Positions 55,826 to 63,949 of a DNA stretch of 64,000 bases are shown here, one piece after another. This stretch comes from Deferribacteraceae bacterium (lineage in GTDB: Bacteria; Chrysiogenota; Deferribacteres; Deferribacterales; Deferrivibrionaceae): the NCBI GenBank assembly GCA_020054865.1, contig JAIHAR010000006.1:1-64000 (forward strand). The letters run 5' to 3'. The position numbers and the translations under genes are program-made. Below the pieces are notes generated by a model. The model saw only the letters and a program-made list of their open reading frames with translations, searched no databases and was not told the origin of the DNA. Position 1 is the stretch's first letter. Each line of letters opens with the position of its first letter.

Positions 55826-55869
55826 TTGAATAAATTTCCGTTTTGTTTATATATACCCCTATAGGGTAT
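55826..55869 (+). promoter_or_regulatory. copA promoter with CsoR-type operator
   Basis: TTGAAT (55826-55831), 16 bases, TATATA (55848-55853), directly followed by ATACCC-CTATA-GGGTAT (55853-55869). The G/C-tract palindrome is the form bound by CsoR-type copper sensors. Overlap with the promoter implies repression lifted by Cu(I). No csoR gene is in the window. Confidence 0.75.
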
Positions 55870-55881
55870 AGGAGATTATGT

Positions 55882-58215
55882 ATGAATTATATTTTATCCG
55901 TAAAAGGTATGACTTGCGCTGCCTGTGCAAGACGAATAGATGTCAGCCTCAATAAGATTGAAGGCGTTAAAAATGTATCGGTTAACCTTGTGGCGGAAAA
56001 GGTTACTTTTGAGTCAAACAAAAATGGGATTCTTGATGAAGTTATATCAAAAATAGAGGGGCTTGGCTACGAGGTTGAAAGGGAAAGGGTTGATTTCATG
56101 ATTGACGGTATGACCTGTGCAGCTTGTTCAAGCAGGATAGAAAAGCAGGTTGCTAAGATGAATGGAGTTTTAAGCTCGACAGTGAATCTTACTACGGGCA
56201 AAGGTACGTTTTATATTGCAAAAGGGATGATTTCAGAAAAGGACATAAAAGATAAAATTGAAAGCCTTGGCTACCAGCCCAGAGCATTAAAAAATGAAAT
56301 ATTGGCTGAAAGTGACAAAGCGATAGTTGAGAAAAAAATCAAACTGTTGCTTTCAATTTTTGTGTCTTTACCATTGTTGTTTTCAATGTTTGATATGATT
56401 TTTGATATATACATAATACCTGATTTTCTTTCTAACAAATATGTCCAACTTGCCCTTGGCAGCATTGTTCAGTTTTATTGTGGATTTCAGTTTTATAAAG
56501 GTGCATATGCAAATTTGAGACATTTTAGTGCAAATATGGATGTCCTTGTCGCTCTTGGAACATCTGCAGCGTATTTTTTTAGTGTTTACAATATGTTTTC
56601 GGGAGGACATCTGTACTTTGAGACTTCTGCAATTCTTATCACTCTTATACTTCTTGGAAAATACCTTGAGGAAAGAGCTAAAGGCAAAACCAAAGAAGCA
56701 ATTTCAAAACTTATGGACCTTACCCCCAAAAAGGCAAGGGTCGTCAGAGATGGTGTTGAGTTGGATATCCCCACTGAAGAGGTTAAGGTGGGTGATATTG
56801 TTATAGTAAGACCAGGTGAAAAACTGCCTGTTGATGGTGTCATTGTGGAAGGGCAGACATACATTGATGAATCTATGCTCACCGGGGAAAGTGCTCCTGT
56901 GAAAAAAGGTGTTGAAGATGAAGTAATAGGCGCGACAATAAATAAAAACAATACATTCAAATACAAGGCGACAAAAGTAGGCCAGGATACAATGCTTTCT
57001 CAGATAGTTAAAATTATTGAAGAAGCACAGGGCTCTAAAGCTCCAATCCAGCGATTTGCTGACGTTATATCAGGTTATTTTGTCCCTGTTGTTATAGTTA
57101 TATCAATTTTAACATTTATCTACTGGTATTTATTGGGAAGTCAGCACGATATAAATATAAGTATAATTAATATGGTGGCAGTGCTTGTCATAGCTTGTCC
57201 ATGTGCCCTTGGGCTTGCAACACCCACTTCAATAATGGTGGCAACGGGGAAGGCGGCAGAAAACGGTATTTTGTTTAAGGGAGGGGAATATCTTGAAAAG
57301 CTGCACAAAGTGACAGCGGTGGTCTTTGATAAAACAGGAACAATTACCATAGGAAAACCGGTGGTCAGTGAAATTGTTGGAGAAAATAAAAATCTCATTT
57401 TAAAATATGCCGCATCGATTGAGAAATATTCCGAACATCCTATAGCAGAAGCAATAGTTTCTTCTTATAAAAATGATTTCTTTGATGTCAAAAATGTGGA
57501 AGCAATCCCTGGAAAAGGTATCATTGGTGAAATCGATGGCAAAAAGGTATTGGCAGGTTCAAAAAGATTTATAGAGGAGCACCTGAAATTGGATTCAGAT
57601 GAATACAAAATTTCAGGAACAATCGTTTATGTTGCATATGATGGTAAACTTCTCGGAAAAATCTCTGTAAAAGATGATCTCAAACCAGGTTCAATTGAGG
57701 GGATAAAATTATTGAAGAGTAAAGGCTTAAAATTGTTTATGCTTACAGGAGATAACCTTCAAACTGCACATGAAATTGCAAAAAGTGCCGGAATTGAAAA
57801 TGTTATAGCGGAGGTACTTCCCCACGAGAAATCGGATAAAATCAAAGAACTAAGAGATTCGGGAGAAATTGTGGCAATGGTTGGTGATGGAATAAACGAT
57901 GCGCCGGCTCTTGCTGTTGCTGATATTGGGATTGCAATAGGCACAGGAACGGATATAGCCATAGAAGCAGCTGATGTAACGCTGGTAAAAGGGGATATTG
58001 TATCGGTGGCAAAGAGTATAGATTTAAGTCATGCAACAATGAAAAATATCAGGCAAAATCTATTCTGGGCACTTATTTACAACATTATCGGAATACCTGT
58101 GGCAGCATCAGGCTATTTGAATCCTATAATTGCAGGTGCTGCAATGGCTTTTAGTTCGGTTTCTGTTGTTAGCAATGCACTAAGATTAAAAAGGTGGAAG
58201 TTTAACAAATCATAA
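55882..58215 (+). CDS. copA: Copper-translocating P-type ATPase
   Basis: A 777-residue P1B-ATPase. Two N-terminal heavy-metal domains carry [11 protein letters not shown] (about 8-18) and [11 protein letters not shown] (about 76-86). The transmembrane metal motif is [11 protein letters not shown], the phosphorylation site [11 protein letters not shown], the hinge [12 protein letters not shown], and the actuator [20 protein letters not shown] is typical of Cu(I) exporters. ATG 55882 has AGGAG seven bases upstream. A copper chaperone gene follows after 12 bases. Confidence 0.96.
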
Positions 58216-58227
58216 GGAGGAAAATTT

Positions 58228-58437
58228 ATGAAAGAAGTAAAGCTGACTGTTAATGGTATGAGTTGCCATCATTGCAAGAATGCTGTGGAATCATCGTTAA
58301 AGAAGCTTCAGGGTGTGGAAAACGCCGAGGTAAATCTTGCGGAAAAGAGTGTTAAGGTGATTTTTGACGAGGCAAAGGTTAATCTTGAAAAGATTTATAA
58401 TGAAATTGAGGAAGCAGGTTACGAGCCTGTAAAGTAA
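58228..58437 (+). CDS. copZ: CopZ-like copper chaperone (HMA domain)
   Basis: A 69-residue single HMA domain: VNGMSCHHCKNAVESSLKKL carries the CxxC metal site (C13/C16). The following GVENAEVNLAEKSVKV and EEAGYEPV are normal for the fold. It should deliver Cu(I) to CopA, encoded upstream. AAGGAGG precedes the ATG; a palindromic terminator follows. Confidence 0.93.
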   Translation: MKEVKLTVNGMSCHHCKNAVESSLKKLQGVENAEVNLAEKSVKVIFDEAKVNLEKIYNEIEEAGYEPVK

Positions 58438-59064: not shown

Positions 59065-59694
59065 ATGTTGAAAAATTATATTTTTGACCTGGATAACACT
59101 CTATACAGTCCGGAAAAAGATGTGTTGAAAGAGATTGACAGACGCATAAATATTTTTATGCACAGTAAGCTTAATCTAAAGAATGTAAATGAACTTAGAA
59201 AATATTATCGGGATAACTACGGGACTACCCTGTTGGGATTAATGAAGCATCATGGAACAAACCCTCGTGATTATCTGGATTTTGTCCACGATATTGAGTA
59301 TGAAAAACTTCTCGATAAAGACGAAAATCTGATATCTGTACTTGGCAGCATTGAAGGTAAAAAGATTATTTTTACAAACGGCTCGTACATGCATGCAGTA
59401 AACACTCTTACCTGTTTAGGTGTTATTGATATGTTTGACAATATCTTTTCCATTGAAAACTATATTGAATATCCCAAACCTTTTGAGCCGTCATACGACA
59501 AAGTCATCAAAGCCTTACAGATTTTGCCCGAAGAAAGTTTGTACTTTGAAGACTCAAAAAGAAACTTAAACGCAGCAAAAAAGTTTAATTTTAAGACTGC
59601 GCTTGTTTGGGACAGGGATGAAGATTTTGATTATTCTTTTGATACAATATATGATATAATTCAACTAAAAGATGCAGAGGTGAATGTTGGATAA
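59065..59694 (+). CDS. HAD-superfamily phosphatase, pyrimidine 5'-nucleotidase-like
   Basis: A 209-residue HAD protein. Motif I is YIFDLDNTLYSP (5-16), motif II IIFTNGSYMHAV, and motif IV LYFEDSKRNLNAAKKF. A helical cap between motifs I and II (RDNYGTTLLGLM) matches the yeast SDT1/PHM8-type pyrimidine 5'-nucleotidase group. Substrate is inferred only. It heads the six-gene signalling-to-ubiE stretch and overlaps the next gene by 11 bases. Confidence 0.85.
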   Translation: MLKNYIFDLDNTLYSPEKDVLKEIDRRINIFMHSKLNLKNVNELRKYYRDNYGTTLLGLMKHHGTNPRDYLDFVHDIEYEKLLDKDENLISVLGSIEGKKIIFTNGSYMHAVNTLTCLGVIDMFDNIFSIENYIEYPKPFEPSYDKVIKALQILPEESLYFEDSKRNLNAAKKFNFKTALVWDRDEDFDYSFDTIYDIIQLKDAEVNVG

Positions 59695-60250
59695 AACAAC
59701 AAAAGACTTATACAGCTTTTTTTCGCACAATATCAGAACGTTCAATGCTGAGATTGTAACCACAATCGAATGTTTGAAGGTGGGTTTTATTGATAAGGAT
59801 AGCGAAGAGTTTGATACTGTGTATGAGGCTTCATATCTTCTTGATCTATATGATTCGTGTTTGAGTATAATACTTGATTATTTAGATGGAGCAAAAATAG
59901 AAAAAAAGAGTGAAGAAGTTGATATTGTAAGGATTACGGAAGAATTTTTGGAGTCCATAAAAGGATATTTAACTGCAAGTGGTCTTAATATTGTGAAAAA
60001 CTTTAATGATGAAATATGGTATACTGACAGTTATATATTTAAAAATATTTATAAAATTGTTCTTTATGAGTTTATCAAAACAGCGTCAAAGGGGATTAGT
60101 TTTAATATTGCAGGTGCGATTGAAATAGAAGCTGATGAGATTATTGGTGCGTTGCCTGATATCTTTAAGACGTTTCAGGAGATATTTGATAAAATCGGGT
60201 TTAAACTGAAGTTTGATAACAAGAAAATTGTTCTGGAGTATCTTTCATGA
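59684..60250 (+). CDS. H-box protein: histidine-kinase-like dimerisation domain with degraded ATPase part
   Basis: A 188-residue cytoplasmic protein. Residues 11-24 (SFFSHNIRTFNAEI) resemble the H-box of sensor kinases, with His15 as the candidate phosphate acceptor, although the usual Pro after RT is missing. Residues 95-188 look like a worn-down kinase ATP-binding domain (YKIVLYEFIKTASKG where the N-box would be, no G-boxes). It has no sensor or membrane segment. It might be a Spo0B/ChpT-like phosphotransferase for the receiver encoded next, with a four-base overlap. I do not recognise a named family. Confidence 0.6.
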   Translation: MLDKTTKDLYSFFSHNIRTFNAEIVTTIECLKVGFIDKDSEEFDTVYEASYLLDLYDSCLSIILDYLDGAKIEKKSEEVDIVRITEEFLESIKGYLTASGLNIVKNFNDEIWYTDSYIFKNIYKIVLYEFIKTASKGISFNIAGAIEIEADEIIGALPDIFKTFQEIFDKIGFKLKFDNKKIVLEYLS

Positions 60251-60612
60251 GAGTACTTATCGCAGATGATGAACTACGACTTAGAAAAGTAGTTGCTTTG
60301 CACTTAAAAAAAAGCGGCCTTGATGTTATCGAGGTTTCAAACGGTAGGCAGGCCATAGAAAAGGCAAAAGAATGCAAACCTGATGTTATAGTCCTTGATG
60401 TTATGATGCCTGAAATGAACGGGCTTGAAGCGTTGAGTCATATCAAGTCTGACAATATGTTAAAAAATATCCCGGTGATAATGCTCTCTGCAAAGGCAAC
60501 AGGAGAAGATATTGAAAAGGGCATGGCTTTAGGGGCTGCATGCTATTTGACAAAACCTTTCAGCCCAAAACAGTTGCTGGATGAAATAAACAAACTGGGT
60601 GTAAAACTGTAA
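60247..60612 (+). CDS. Stand-alone response regulator receiver (CheY-like)
   Basis: A 121-residue receiver domain with no output domain. The acidic pair is DD (7-8), the phospho-acceptor Asp51 (VIVLDVMMPEMNG), switch Ser81 (MLSAKA) and Lys103 (YLTKPFSP). All needed residues are present. It overlaps the H-box gene by four bases and ends next to the HDOD gene, so it probably relays phosphorylation within this operon. Confidence 0.93.
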   Translation: MRVLIADDELRLRKVVALHLKKSGLDVIEVSNGRQAIEKAKECKPDVIVLDVMMPEMNGLEALSHIKSDNMLKNIPVIMLSAKATGEDIEKGMALGAACYLTKPFSPKQLLDEINKLGVKL

Positions 60613-61695
60613 ATGACCAAATTATATTTTCATGGCAGCAAAAATACATTTTCAAAAATTGCAAAAGAATTAAGCGGTCACTTTGAATTTACGGCTGATT
60701 ACAATTCCTCTGATATAGTGCTGGTTGAAATGCTTGGTGAATCTGAAGCTGCTCAGCTTGACAAATTTAGTGGTAAGAGGGTATTTGCAATTTTTGATAG
60801 GCCTGACAGGAATCTCATTTCGGAAGTTAAAAAACATAAAATAGCTGGGATTTTAACAGCGCCTTTAAGTAAAGAAGTTTTACTGGGAAAATTGAAAAAT
60901 CAGGCGGCTTCATCTGATTTGCAGGATGTAGTAAAATATGAAACACTTAAGGCCAAGATTATTGCTAAGGCTGAAAGTATTCCGCCGCTTCCTAAAATTG
61001 CAAGGGAACTTATCTTATTGTCTTCAAAAGAAAATGTTGAGATGGGGGATGTCATAGAGAAAATAAAGTCGGATCAGGGGATTGCTTCCAAACTTCTTAA
61101 AATAATCAATTCTCCATTTTATGGGATGAGAAAAGAGATAACAAGTATAGAAAGAGCAGCTCTTCTTTTAGGGCTTCAAACAGTTAAAAATATTGCAATT
61201 TCTCTGTCAACTGCGGACTTTTTCAATAAAAACTTTACACTTTATGGCACAACCGGGAAAAAACTTTGGGAGCACTCGTTTATTGTAGCAAGGTTATGTG
61301 AAGAAATGGCGCATTTTTCAAACCTTAATCCTGATACGGAAGCACTATACCTTGCAGGGCTATGCCACGATATAGGTAAAGTAATACTAATAGACTTTCT
61401 TTATGAAAATGTCAGTATTCCCGCTGACGAGTCAAGACAGCTTGGGCTAAATCATATAGATGTTGCAGAGATAGTCCTGAAAAAATGGAATATTGCCGGA
61501 AAAATTATAGAGTGGGTAAAAAATCATCATGAATTTAACCCTGATGTGGGCAGTTCAATATTATATTTTGCCAATATGCTTGCAAATGAGCCGGATTGTA
61601 TTCAGGAGATTTTGCCTGAGCTTGCGGTTATTGCAGGAATTGACAAAGAGAGGTTTGGCAGTAAGATTGCCCAAATTTTAGGTGAGGATGTTTAG
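60613..61695 (+). CDS. HDOD-domain signalling protein
   Basis: A 360-residue protein. Residues 1-100 look like a degenerate receiver fold without a clear phospho-Asp. The HDOD domain covers about 115-320: IPPLPKIARELILLSSKEN, SKLLKIINSPFYGM, ITSIERAALLLGLQTVKNIA and LAGLCHDIGKVIL, which keeps an HD pair. HDOD proteins act in signalling, often around c-di-GMP, motility and chemotaxis. It starts right after the receiver stop. Confidence 0.88.
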   Translation: MTKLYFHGSKNTFSKIAKELSGHFEFTADYNSSDIVLVEMLGESEAAQLDKFSGKRVFAIFDRPDRNLISEVKKHKIAGILTAPLSKEVLLGKLKNQAASSDLQDVVKYETLKAKIIAKAESIPPLPKIARELILLSSKENVEMGDVIEKIKSDQGIASKLLKIINSPFYGMRKEITSIERAALLLGLQTVKNIAISLSTADFFNKNFTLYGTTGKKLWEHSFIVARLCEEMAHFSNLNPDTEALYLAGLCHDIGKVILIDFLYENVSIPADESRQLGLNHIDVAEIVLKKWNIAGKIIEWVKNHHEFNPDVGSSILYFANMLANEPDCIQEILPELAVIAGIDKERFGSKIAQILGEDV

Positions 61696-61697
61696 CT

Positions 61698-63251
61698 TTG
61701 TTTTACAGTGATTTTGCAAAAATCTTGACGAGCGCAACAATTGATTCATTTTTTGGACATTTGTTTAATCTTATTAAATCATCTGAATGTAAAAAGTATG
61801 CCGTTTTAAGATTTGACGGCAGTACGGTTGCAGATGTTGTTATCCAAAAAGGTTTTCATGAAAATTTCTTTATGGATATTTCTGATTTGAATTTTGAACA
61901 AAAGCCTTTTAATGAAAATATCTTAATAAATTTTTTCGGTGAAGAGATTAAGGTAGAGCTTGCTTTATATATTTATCACAACAGCTCACTTTTTGCTGCT
62001 GTGCTTCTCAATTCAATTAATCCCCTGTACCGTGATTTTCTTAAGGAGAATGCAGATGCACTATCTTTGAGATATTTTGAAATACTTGTCAAAGATAAGC
62101 GTACGGAAGTTTATGTGGAGTATCAAAAGAAGATAGATTTTATAAAAGTTGTAAGCAATATTTTCAGGAATTTGTCTGTTAATGAGCTTTTGACAGCAGG
62201 CGTAGGGCTTTTTTCAGATGTCTTTGCTGCACAGGCAAGCTGTGTAATTTACGAGGGGAAGTTTATCCCTATAGGAGTAAGTCAGGAAGATCTTCAAGAG
62301 ATAACAGTAGATGGTGCACCCCTTATCCGGAAGATAACCCAGATGCAAAGCACTTACTTTATAAAGGAAAAAATAGAATCGGTAAAATATAATATAGAAA
62401 ATATATTTTTTATATTTGAGCCAAAATATAAAATGAGGGTTGTTTTATTTAACATCAGTGTTGATTTTGCACCGGATGTGGAATTTTCTCAGATTGTAAC
62501 TTCAATTTTGACAATTGCGCTGGAAAATGCCTTTGCCCATGAAAAAATGGTTGAGTTAAAAGTGCATGAATCTGAGATGCAAAAAACCGCTCAAATATTG
62601 AATATGTTTGTAAATAAAGAGATATATGTAGACTCAGAAATCAAAGGGTATGGTGTAAGTATTCCTGCGAAAGTGGCAGGTGGCGACTTTTTATATTTTG
62701 TTGAAAATGATAACGAATTCTTTGTCTGTATAGCCGATGTGTGCGGTAAAGGATATTCTGCTGCGGTATTGACGGTTGTGATGAGTACCTTTGCTGAAAT
62801 GCAGAAACACAATGATAAATTTGATATCTTATTGCTGGCAAAAACACTTTCAGGGTTTCTTATAAGCAAAAATCTTGAAGGAAGGTTTGTTACCGCTTTT
62901 ATTGGAGTTATAGATAAAGAGAGTTTAAATATTAAATATATTTCCCTTGGGCACGAGCCTGTTTATATGATCAGCAATGATGAAATTAATGAATTGGATT
63001 CAAATTATCTCCCCATTGGTATCATTGATGAGGAATATGAAATTCGCGAAGCAGCCCTTCAAAGGGGTGATTACCTGTTTTTGTTTACTGACGGGATAGT
63101 TGAATATATTGATTACGACAAGCTAAAATCTAAAATTCTTGAAATAAAACATACAAAACTTGAAGATTTTGTCAAATCGCTATATAAATTTTGTGTTACA
63201 GATGAAAAAAATCAAAAAGATGATTTTACCTGTGCAATTTTAAAAATCTGA
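61698..63251 (+). CDS. SpoIIE/RsbU-type PP2C protein phosphatase with N-terminal sensor region
   Basis: A 517-residue protein. Residues 1-290 are probably a GAF-like sensor region (weak). The PP2C_2/SpoIIE domain is at about 315-517: AGGDFLYFVEN, CIADVCGKGYSAAVLTVVMS, FVTAFIGVIDKE, SLGHEPVYMI and YLFLFTDGIVEY, with the metal-binding Asp residues kept. Such phosphatases dephosphorylate anti-sigma antagonists in partner-switching; none is encoded here. The start is TTG at 61698. It lies directly after the HDOD gene. Confidence 0.9.
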   Translation: MFYSDFAKILTSATIDSFFGHLFNLIKSSECKKYAVLRFDGSTVADVVIQKGFHENFFMDISDLNFEQKPFNENILINFFGEEIKVELALYIYHNSSLFAAVLLNSINPLYRDFLKENADALSLRYFEILVKDKRTEVYVEYQKKIDFIKVVSNIFRNLSVNELLTAGVGLFSDVFAAQASCVIYEGKFIPIGVSQEDLQEITVDGAPLIRKITQMQSTYFIKEKIESVKYNIENIFFIFEPKYKMRVVLFNISVDFAPDVEFSQIVTSILTIALENAFAHEKMVELKVHESEMQKTAQILNMFVNKEIYVDSEIKGYGVSIPAKVAGGDFLYFVENDNEFFVCIADVCGKGYSAAVLTVVMSTFAEMQKHNDKFDILLLAKTLSGFLISKNLEGRFVTAFIGVIDKESLNIKYISLGHEPVYMISNDEINELDSNYLPIGIIDEEYEIREAALQRGDYLFLFTDGIVEYIDYDKLKSKILEIKHTKLEDFVKSLYKFCVTDEKNQKDDFTCAILKI

Positions 63252-63268
63252 AAATAAAGGGTGATATT

Positions 63269-63949
63269 TTGGAAGATAAATCAAAGCAGATACAATCTAT
63301 GTTTGACAATATTGCGGGGAAATATGACCTTCTTAACAGGCTATTGAGCTTTAGAAGGGACGTGGCATGGCGCAAGAAGGCTATTTCGAAAATGGATATT
63401 ACAAACAAAATGCTTGTACTTGACCTTGCCTGTGGCACGGGGGATATGATTTTGGAGCTTAAAAATCAGGTCAATGGTGCAAGGGTTATAGGAGCTGATT
63501 TCAGTATGAATATGCTTACTGTTGCAAGAAGAAAAGGGATAAATGAACCATTGCTTGCAGCAGATGCCCATTATTTGCCATTCAAAGAAAACTCTTTTGA
63601 TAGAATTATGATAGCATTTGGGTTTAGAAATGTTGTGGACAAACAGTTAGGGTTAAGAAACCTTTATAGGATTTTAAAGCCGGGTGGAAGGCTCTGCATA
63701 CTTGAATTTTCACAGCCAGAAGGAATCTTTTTTTCAAAAATCTACCGAATTTATTTCACAAAACTTCTCCCCTTTATAGGTGGGGTTATCTCAGGGAATA
63801 AAAATGCATACACCTATCTGCCTGATTCGGTTTATAAATTTCCCAAAAAGGACATTTACAAAGAGATGATTTTGTCTGCAGGGTTTAAAAAAGTTGAATT
63901 TAACCCTTTGACTTTTGGTATATGTGATGCAACAATCTGTTATAAATAA
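63269..63949 (+). CDS. ubiE: Demethylmenaquinone/ubiquinone methyltransferase UbiE/MenG
   Basis: A 226-residue SAM methyltransferase. FDNIAGKYDLLNRLLSF opens the protein, motif I is LVLDLACGTGDMILEL, and LRNLYRILKPGGRLCILEFSQP is the family post-motif. In an anaerobe it most likely makes menaquinone. The start is TTG with GGGTGA upstream. It lies 17 bases after the phosphatase gene, and the next gene starts within its end. Confidence 0.93.
   Translation: MEDKSKQIQSMFDNIAGKYDLLNRLLSFRRDVAWRKKAISKMDITNKMLVLDLACGTGDMILELKNQVNGARVIGADFSMNMLTVARRKGINEPLLAADAHYLPFKENSFDRIMIAFGFRNVVDKQLGLRNLYRILKPGGRLCILEFSQPEGIFFSKIYRIYFTKLLPFIGGVISGNKNAYTYLPDSVYKFPKKDIYKEMILSAGFKKVEFNPLTFGICDATICYK

Follow-up and report, generated by a model that had tools for sequence, protein, structure and literature searches.

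To our knowledge, phosphotransferases that derive from histidine kinases and are dead as kinases are known in only a few cases, namely Spo0B, ChpT and PhyT. In Spo0B and ChpT, a histidine exchanges phosphate with the receivers of these proteins. Spo0B acts together with the single-domain receiver Spo0F in the Bacillus sporulation phosphorelay. ChpT of Caulobacter and Brucella, with its partners CckA, CtrA and CpdR, consists of a DHp hairpin carrying the H-box histidine and an ATP-incompetent CA-like domain (PMC3433190). In the PhyT-SdrG system of Sphingomonas, a histidine kinase-like phosphotransferase with a conserved histidine operates between a single-domain regulator and the partner-switch of the general stress response (PMC5898713). 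In the HptB-HsbR-HsbA system of Pseudomonas aeruginosa (CrsR/CrsA in Shewanella), a phosphotransfer protein acts on a receiver, and this receiver in turn controls a PP2C phosphatase and a STAS antagonist (PMC6482189). For PP2C phosphatases in general, a coiled-coil mechanism involving a sensory N-terminus and a helical linker has been proposed (PMC12143880).

Here we describe a four-gene signalling cluster that occupies positions 59684-63251 of the analysed window, the first 64,000 nucleotides of contig JAIHAR010000006.1 from a Deferribacteraceae bacterium (assembly GCA_020054865.1). The cluster encodes, in this order, a kinase-derived phosphotransferase or phosphatase candidate (hereafter HPT), a single-domain receiver (REC), an HDOD protein and a PP2C phosphatase. 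As in HptB-HsbR-HsbA, a phosphotransfer protein would act here on a receiver that may govern a PP2C and a STAS antagonist. Unlike HptB, which is an ordinary Hpt domain, HPT is derived from a histidine kinase; furthermore, HsbR combines REC, PP2C and kinase in one protein, with HsbA as the partner, whereas here REC and PP2C are the products of separate genes in one operon that includes an extra gene for an HDOD protein but no kinase or STAS gene. With ChpT, HPT shares the DHp hairpin, the predicted ATP-incompetent CA-like domain and the H-box histidine, but it does not match the ChpT family of Pfam, its H-box is HisKA-like (FSH[NH]xRT), and its candidate partner is the single-domain receiver of the operon. 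The pairing of a dead-kinase DHp protein with a single-domain receiver also recalls Spo0B-Spo0F; in this case, however, there is no Pfam Spo0B match, the HPT and REC genes are adjacent, a final regulator of the Spo0A type is missing, and the output looks like HDOD/PP2C. PhyT is likewise a histidine kinase-like protein with a conserved histidine that functions next to a single-domain regulator, but it is membrane-bound and feeds PhyR/EcfG, without a PP2C or an HDOD protein. Finally, the PP2C of the operon resembles RsbU and SpoIIE in its metal-binding aspartates and in an N-terminus joined through a helical linker, but the N-terminal 290 aa are unique to Deferribacterales.

Given that HptB-HsbR-HsbA is an established example of a phosphorelay that ends on a PP2C, the operon is to be considered a new, order-wide variant. 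An initial reading of this DNA, made from the sequence only, had seen in it a combination not familiar as a described pathway; taken as a claim of an undescribed kind of pathway, this was an overstatement with regard to a phosphorelay onto REC-PP2C (PMC6482189) and to Asp-less receivers, which are often joined to HDOD domains (PMC4395418), but the literature search did not turn up the specific combination of the four genes.

Organization of the operon

The coordinates of the features are given in Table 1. The cluster is real as described in the sequence-only reading: the coordinates of the four open reading frames are exact, and the junctions HPT/REC, REC/HDOD and HDOD/PP2C measure -4, 0 and +2 nt. 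The PP2C gene starts with a TTG codon at 61698, preceded by the purine stretch GGTGAGG about 10 nt 5' of the start. Because both the gene order and the proteins are conserved across Deferribacterales, the arrangement is not due to chance. The gene for the HAD nucleotidase, whose upstream position is kept in some families only, shares 11 nt with the HPT gene and is probably part of the same transcript; ubiE begins 17 nt past the PP2C gene, and given these distances on both sides, the transcript probably comprises more than four genes. The region around the operon is not richer in promoter-like or terminator-like patterns than shuffled sequence. Farther upstream, a HIT-family gene faces the operon, and just upstream of it lie genes for a copper-transporting P-type ATPase and then a small CopZ-like metal-binding protein (55843-58437 of the window; both named by sight).

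Table 1. Features of the operon and adjacent genes, with coordinates in the window
Feature	Coordinates	Strand	Evidence
HAD pyrimidine 5'-nucleotidase gene, upstream of HPT	59065..59694	+	TIGR01993 above cut-off
HPT, 188-aa dead-kinase phosphotransferase/phosphatase candidate	59684..60250	+	AF2, Foldseek, hhalign; no Pfam/NCBIfam match
HPT His15 codon, putative phospho-accepting His in H-box FSHNIRT	59726..59728	+	His in 31/33 orthologues
HPT Thr19 codon (His+4), HisKA phosphatase Thr/Asn position	59738..59740	+	Thr 31, Asn 2 of 33
REC, single-domain receiver, 121 aa	60247..60612	+	PF00072 5.1e-30
REC Asp51 codon, phospho-acceptor	60397..60399	+	invariant in 19 aligned rows and in L114
HDOD protein, 360 aa	60613..61695	+	PF08668 1.2e-39, aa 123-307; AF2 pLDDT 88
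N-terminal Asp-less receiver-like domain of HDOD protein, aa 1-97	60613..60903	+	model beta/alpha order; Foldseek
HDOD domain	60979..61533	+	Pfam; H221, H252-D253, H281, H305-H306 invariant
PP2C, SpoIIE-type Ser/Thr phosphatase, 517 aa	61698..63251	+	PF07228 1e-27
SpoIIE/PP2C catalytic domain	62709..63248	+	Pfam
UbiE/MenG menaquinone methyltransferase gene, downstream of PP2C	63269..63949	+	conserved neighbour

HPT, a predicted dead kinase that retains its H-box

The HPT sequence does not match any family in Pfam or NCBIfam, and a Pfam scan of 22 orthologues yielded chance matches only: the ChpT profile (HPTransfase) was found in 0 of the 22 at E<=1, and the Spo0B-type domain was unmatched among them. 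The AlphaFold2 model, a monomer prediction built from 22 orthologues (pLDDT 94, pTM 0.90), consists of a two-helix hairpin (4-32, 41-67) followed by a small alpha/beta domain; together with profile comparisons, it delineates a HisKA-type DHp hairpin (aa 4-67) and a reduced CA-like domain (aa 77-188). A Foldseek search with this model retrieved the DHp-CA cores of the HisKA kinases SrrB, AdeS, HK853, DivL and RetS as well as the phosphotransferase structures 4qpj and 4qpk, which are of the ChpT type (PMC5231405). In profile searches, ordinary kinases were matched over the H-box and the CA region, and hhalign aligned HPT with the histidine kinase cores from its own genome (95.6%, E 1.2e-8), the alignment omitting exactly the ATP lid and the G2 box.

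Consistent with this gap, the shrunken CA domain lacks the ATP lid and the G1 and G2 boxes: of 33 orthologues, none has GxGxG and one has DxGxG. The position of the N-box Asn is occupied by Glu129, which is invariant across the 33. Among the hallmarks of an active HisKA kinase, HPT has thus kept the H-box histidine and has lost the N, G1 and G2 boxes and the ATP lid, and its modelled fold, a DHp hairpin with an atypical, ATP-incompetent Bergerat domain, is that of the ChpT family by AlphaFold2 and Foldseek. Judging from sequence and model, HPT is a dead kinase of histidine kinase origin with an intact H-box; the H-box and an apparently dead kinase domain had been noted at the outset for this 188-residue protein.

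The H-box consensus of the orthologues is FSH[NH]xR[TN] (FSHNIRT in the reference protein), and His15 aligns with the histidine of SHELRT in HK853. Although the orthologues share only about 25% overall identity, 31 of the 33 have His15, the H+4 residue is Thr in 31 and Asn in two, and Arg18, Asp54 and Asp57, along with Glu129, are found in all 33; F13 is invariant as well. The H+1 residue is Asn or His, never acidic, in contrast to most kinases of the same genome, which have an acidic residue after the histidine. The two orthologues without His15 come from family f4 and have the H-boxes FSFHMRN (L112:5986-6552) and FSRHMRN (L114:3904-4467), in which His15 is replaced by Phe and Arg, respectively, His is found at +1 and Asn at +4, and Arg18 is kept; the REC beside these variants retains its Asp and Lys. 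In HisKA kinases, the Thr or Asn one helical turn after the histidine performs the phosphatase chemistry, and the histidine is nonessential for dephosphorylation by NarX (PMC5231405). Because the f4 orthologues lack His15 beside an intact REC, phosphotransfer through His15 is not universal, and with Asn at H+4, a phosphatase or binding role is likelier than phosphotransfer via position 15, at least in this family.

The receiver, the HDOD protein and the phosphatase

The domain assignments of the other three proteins agree with those made originally, namely a full receiver, an HDOD protein with a receiver-like N-terminus and a SpoIIE-type phosphatase. REC is a full Response_reg domain in which Asp51, Lys103 and the alpha1 segment ADDELRLRK are invariant in the 19 aligned rows. 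The N-terminal part of the HDOD protein adopts a receiver-like fold in the AlphaFold2 model, with the corresponding order of beta and alpha elements, and Foldseek matched it to CpaE-type and other receivers; the fold is clear, but the hhalign match to REC is weak (19%). Both the phospho-accepting Asp and the beta5 Lys are missing, so that the protein is predicted to be an Asp-less receiver fused to an HDOD domain. The SpoIIE domain of the PP2C contains the metal-binding active-site aspartates D330, D347, D465, D508 and D509, all of them invariant. The N-terminal region of 290 aa in this protein, which ends in a helical linker, matches no Pfam family and is confined to Deferribacterales, within the same limits as HPT; by pattern only, it might be GAF-like.

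Distribution, gene order and gene loss

HPT orthologues were detected in 34 of the 46 Deferribacterales genomes, representing 7 of the 8 families, and in 0 of the ~340 genomes searched outside the order, comprising other members of the phylum and ~334 other bacteria; the matches obtained there were to ordinary kinases. A profile search of genome contigs with a narrower HPT alignment recovered four named loci, all from Deferribacterales (Calditerrivibrio included). The order HPT-REC-HDOD-PP2C-UbiE is preserved in nearly all loci, and an intact REC adjoins HPT at every one of them; the apparent absence of REC at three loci (L087, L096, L106) is an artefact of ORF picking, and tblastn recovers an intact REC. 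The sequence-only reading had named in advance two findings that would count against it, a His15 that is not conserved in homologues and a gene order limited to this genome; given the retention of His15 in nearly all orthologues and the order-wide gene arrangement, it has essentially withstood both. In two genomes (L115:7148-7507 and L116:7253-7609), a gene for a glycine-rich protein of 118-119 aa with a signal peptide is inserted between REC and HDOD, and in the same two genomes, a gene for a J-domain/TPR protein is located just upstream of HPT.

Three genomes of genus g14 (family f7) lack HPT and REC at the locus but retain HDOD-PP2C with the key residues intact, and two genomes of family f3 lack all four genes. 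Since close relatives carry the genes, these absences are losses, and they show that the operon is made up of two units, HPT+REC on the one hand and HDOD+PP2C on the other; that the former is one unit follows from the loss of both its genes in g14 while HDOD-PP2C stayed. Accordingly, REC is not the sole input of HDOD-PP2C, whose survival without it shows that there is another input or a constitutive role.

Kinases, STAS proteins and other PP2C loci in the genome

The genome that contains the window encodes 40 HATPase_c matches and 52 receivers. It has no free-standing Hpt domain, its 3 Hpt domains being parts of CheA-like ORFs. About eight non-CheA hybrid kinases combine HATPase and REC in one ORF; most are of the AHDFNN type, which ends in a receiver. 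No kinase is linked to the operon in a conserved manner, a hybrid kinase gene adjoining a single locus (L087), and no STAS antagonist or its kinase is encoded within the operon or by the neighbouring genes. The original statement that a true kinase and an anti-sigma antagonist are absent therefore holds for the operon but not for the genome, which has, besides the HATPase_c proteins, an RsbW/RsbV-like pair on contig C39 (L117:8177-8919) and a second locus with PP2C and STAS genes on contig C42. An RsbV/RsbW pair also occurs in G011, a relative without the whole operon, leaving a tie between such a pair and the operon PP2C unsupported; a link between this PP2C and the C39 pair is possible. No sigma factor gene is adjacent to the C39 pair, which is convergent with a gene for a receiver protein whose C-terminus matches no Pfam family.

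The C42 locus (L118:4069-8216) consists of PAS-PAS-PP2C, STAS and STAS-HEAT genes and one further gene, near a CheA gene, and could possibly be a second partner-switch joined to chemotaxis genes. On contig C43 (L119:2889-6119), a 1076-aa ORF combines a membrane-like N-terminus, a GAF domain and a C-terminal SpoIIE phosphatase, and may be a fusion of PP2C with a transporter-like sensor; PP2C ORFs of about this size are present in other genomes of the phylum.

Proposed mechanism and alternatives

Most likely, HPT is a phosphotransferase or phosphatase similar to ChpT and Spo0B that sets the phosphorylation of REC. Under the model that we propose, HPT would be what remains of a HisKA-type kinase, its DHp-CA core, after the use of ATP was lost, and would act, probably as a dimer, on the adjacent REC, to which phosphate would be delivered from a kinase encoded elsewhere. 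His15 of HPT would exchange phosphate with Asp51 of REC, as in Spo0B and ChpT, and the Thr or Asn at His+4 could strip phosphate from REC. The HDOD protein, via the receiver-like domain that lacks the Asp, and PP2C, via its N-terminal region, would sense the state of REC, either singly or jointly, and this readout would switch PP2C on or off; PP2C, in turn, would dephosphorylate a STAS anti-anti-sigma protein, for example, the RsbV-like protein of C39. The comparisons described above establish the underpinnings of this model at the level of sequence, that is, the identities of the proteins, the loss of the ATP-binding motifs, the active residues, the gene order and the co-loss of HPT and REC, and every biochemical or regulatory step is inferred from them. 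For the model as a whole, from HPT through REC and HDOD/PP2C to a STAS protein, we consider the chances of being right and wrong to be about equal.

The notion of HPT as a phosphorelay intermediate, put forward originally, is partly supported by the dead kinase domain, the conserved H-box and, as regards its coupling to REC, the co-loss, but the loss of His15 in f4 fits a phosphatase or binding function. The best-surviving alternative is that HPT serves exclusively as a phosphatase of, or sink for, phosphorylated REC, ordinary kinases phosphorylating REC and HPT resetting it via the H+4 Thr/Asn, so that there is no phosphorelay. The presence of Thr or Asn at H+4, the position of phosphatase chemistry in HisKA kinases (PMC5231405), in all 33 orthologues, and the f4 lineage with its H+4 Asn, Arg18 and intact REC are in line with this possibility, but the retention of His15 in 31 of 33 orthologues at such low overall identity exceeds the expected need, considering that NarX can dispense with the histidine; we regard this alternative as unlikely. 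Quite improbable is a third scenario, in which HPT works without phosphorylation, as an adaptor that binds phosphorylated REC or anchors a complex, the H-box being a relic: the invariant F13, R18, D54, D57 and E129 and the two losses of His15 could be so explained, but not readily the fact that 31 of 33 orthologues conserve His15 together with Thr19. We similarly give little credence to, and reject as the main explanation, a general ChpT-like hub passing phosphate from many hybrid kinases to several regulators, for which the genome, with its eight or so hybrids and no free Hpt, might seem to have room, because most of these hybrids belong to the AHDFNN type, ending in a receiver, similar ones recur in the HPT-less G011 (1.6 of 2.53 Mb covered), and the joint loss of HPT and its own REC links the two.

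Conclusions

In the broadest interpretation of the preferred model, in which HPT sets the phosphorylation of REC, the HPT proteins would represent an independently evolved, order-wide class of HisKA-derived, ATP-dead phosphotransferases, which together with their own REC control a PP2C partner-switch via a pseudo-receiver HDOD protein, with one lineage having turned from a phosphotransferase, with the histidine, to a pure phosphatase, without it. This interpretation is tentative, and we find it conceivable but rather doubtful. The HPT family has no database model, is spread across the order and includes natural His-less variants; owing to these properties, it provides for a direct test of phosphotransfer versus dephosphorylation in dead-kinase proteins, and the operon also offers a test of the role of the HDOD pseudo-receiver ahead of PP2C switches.
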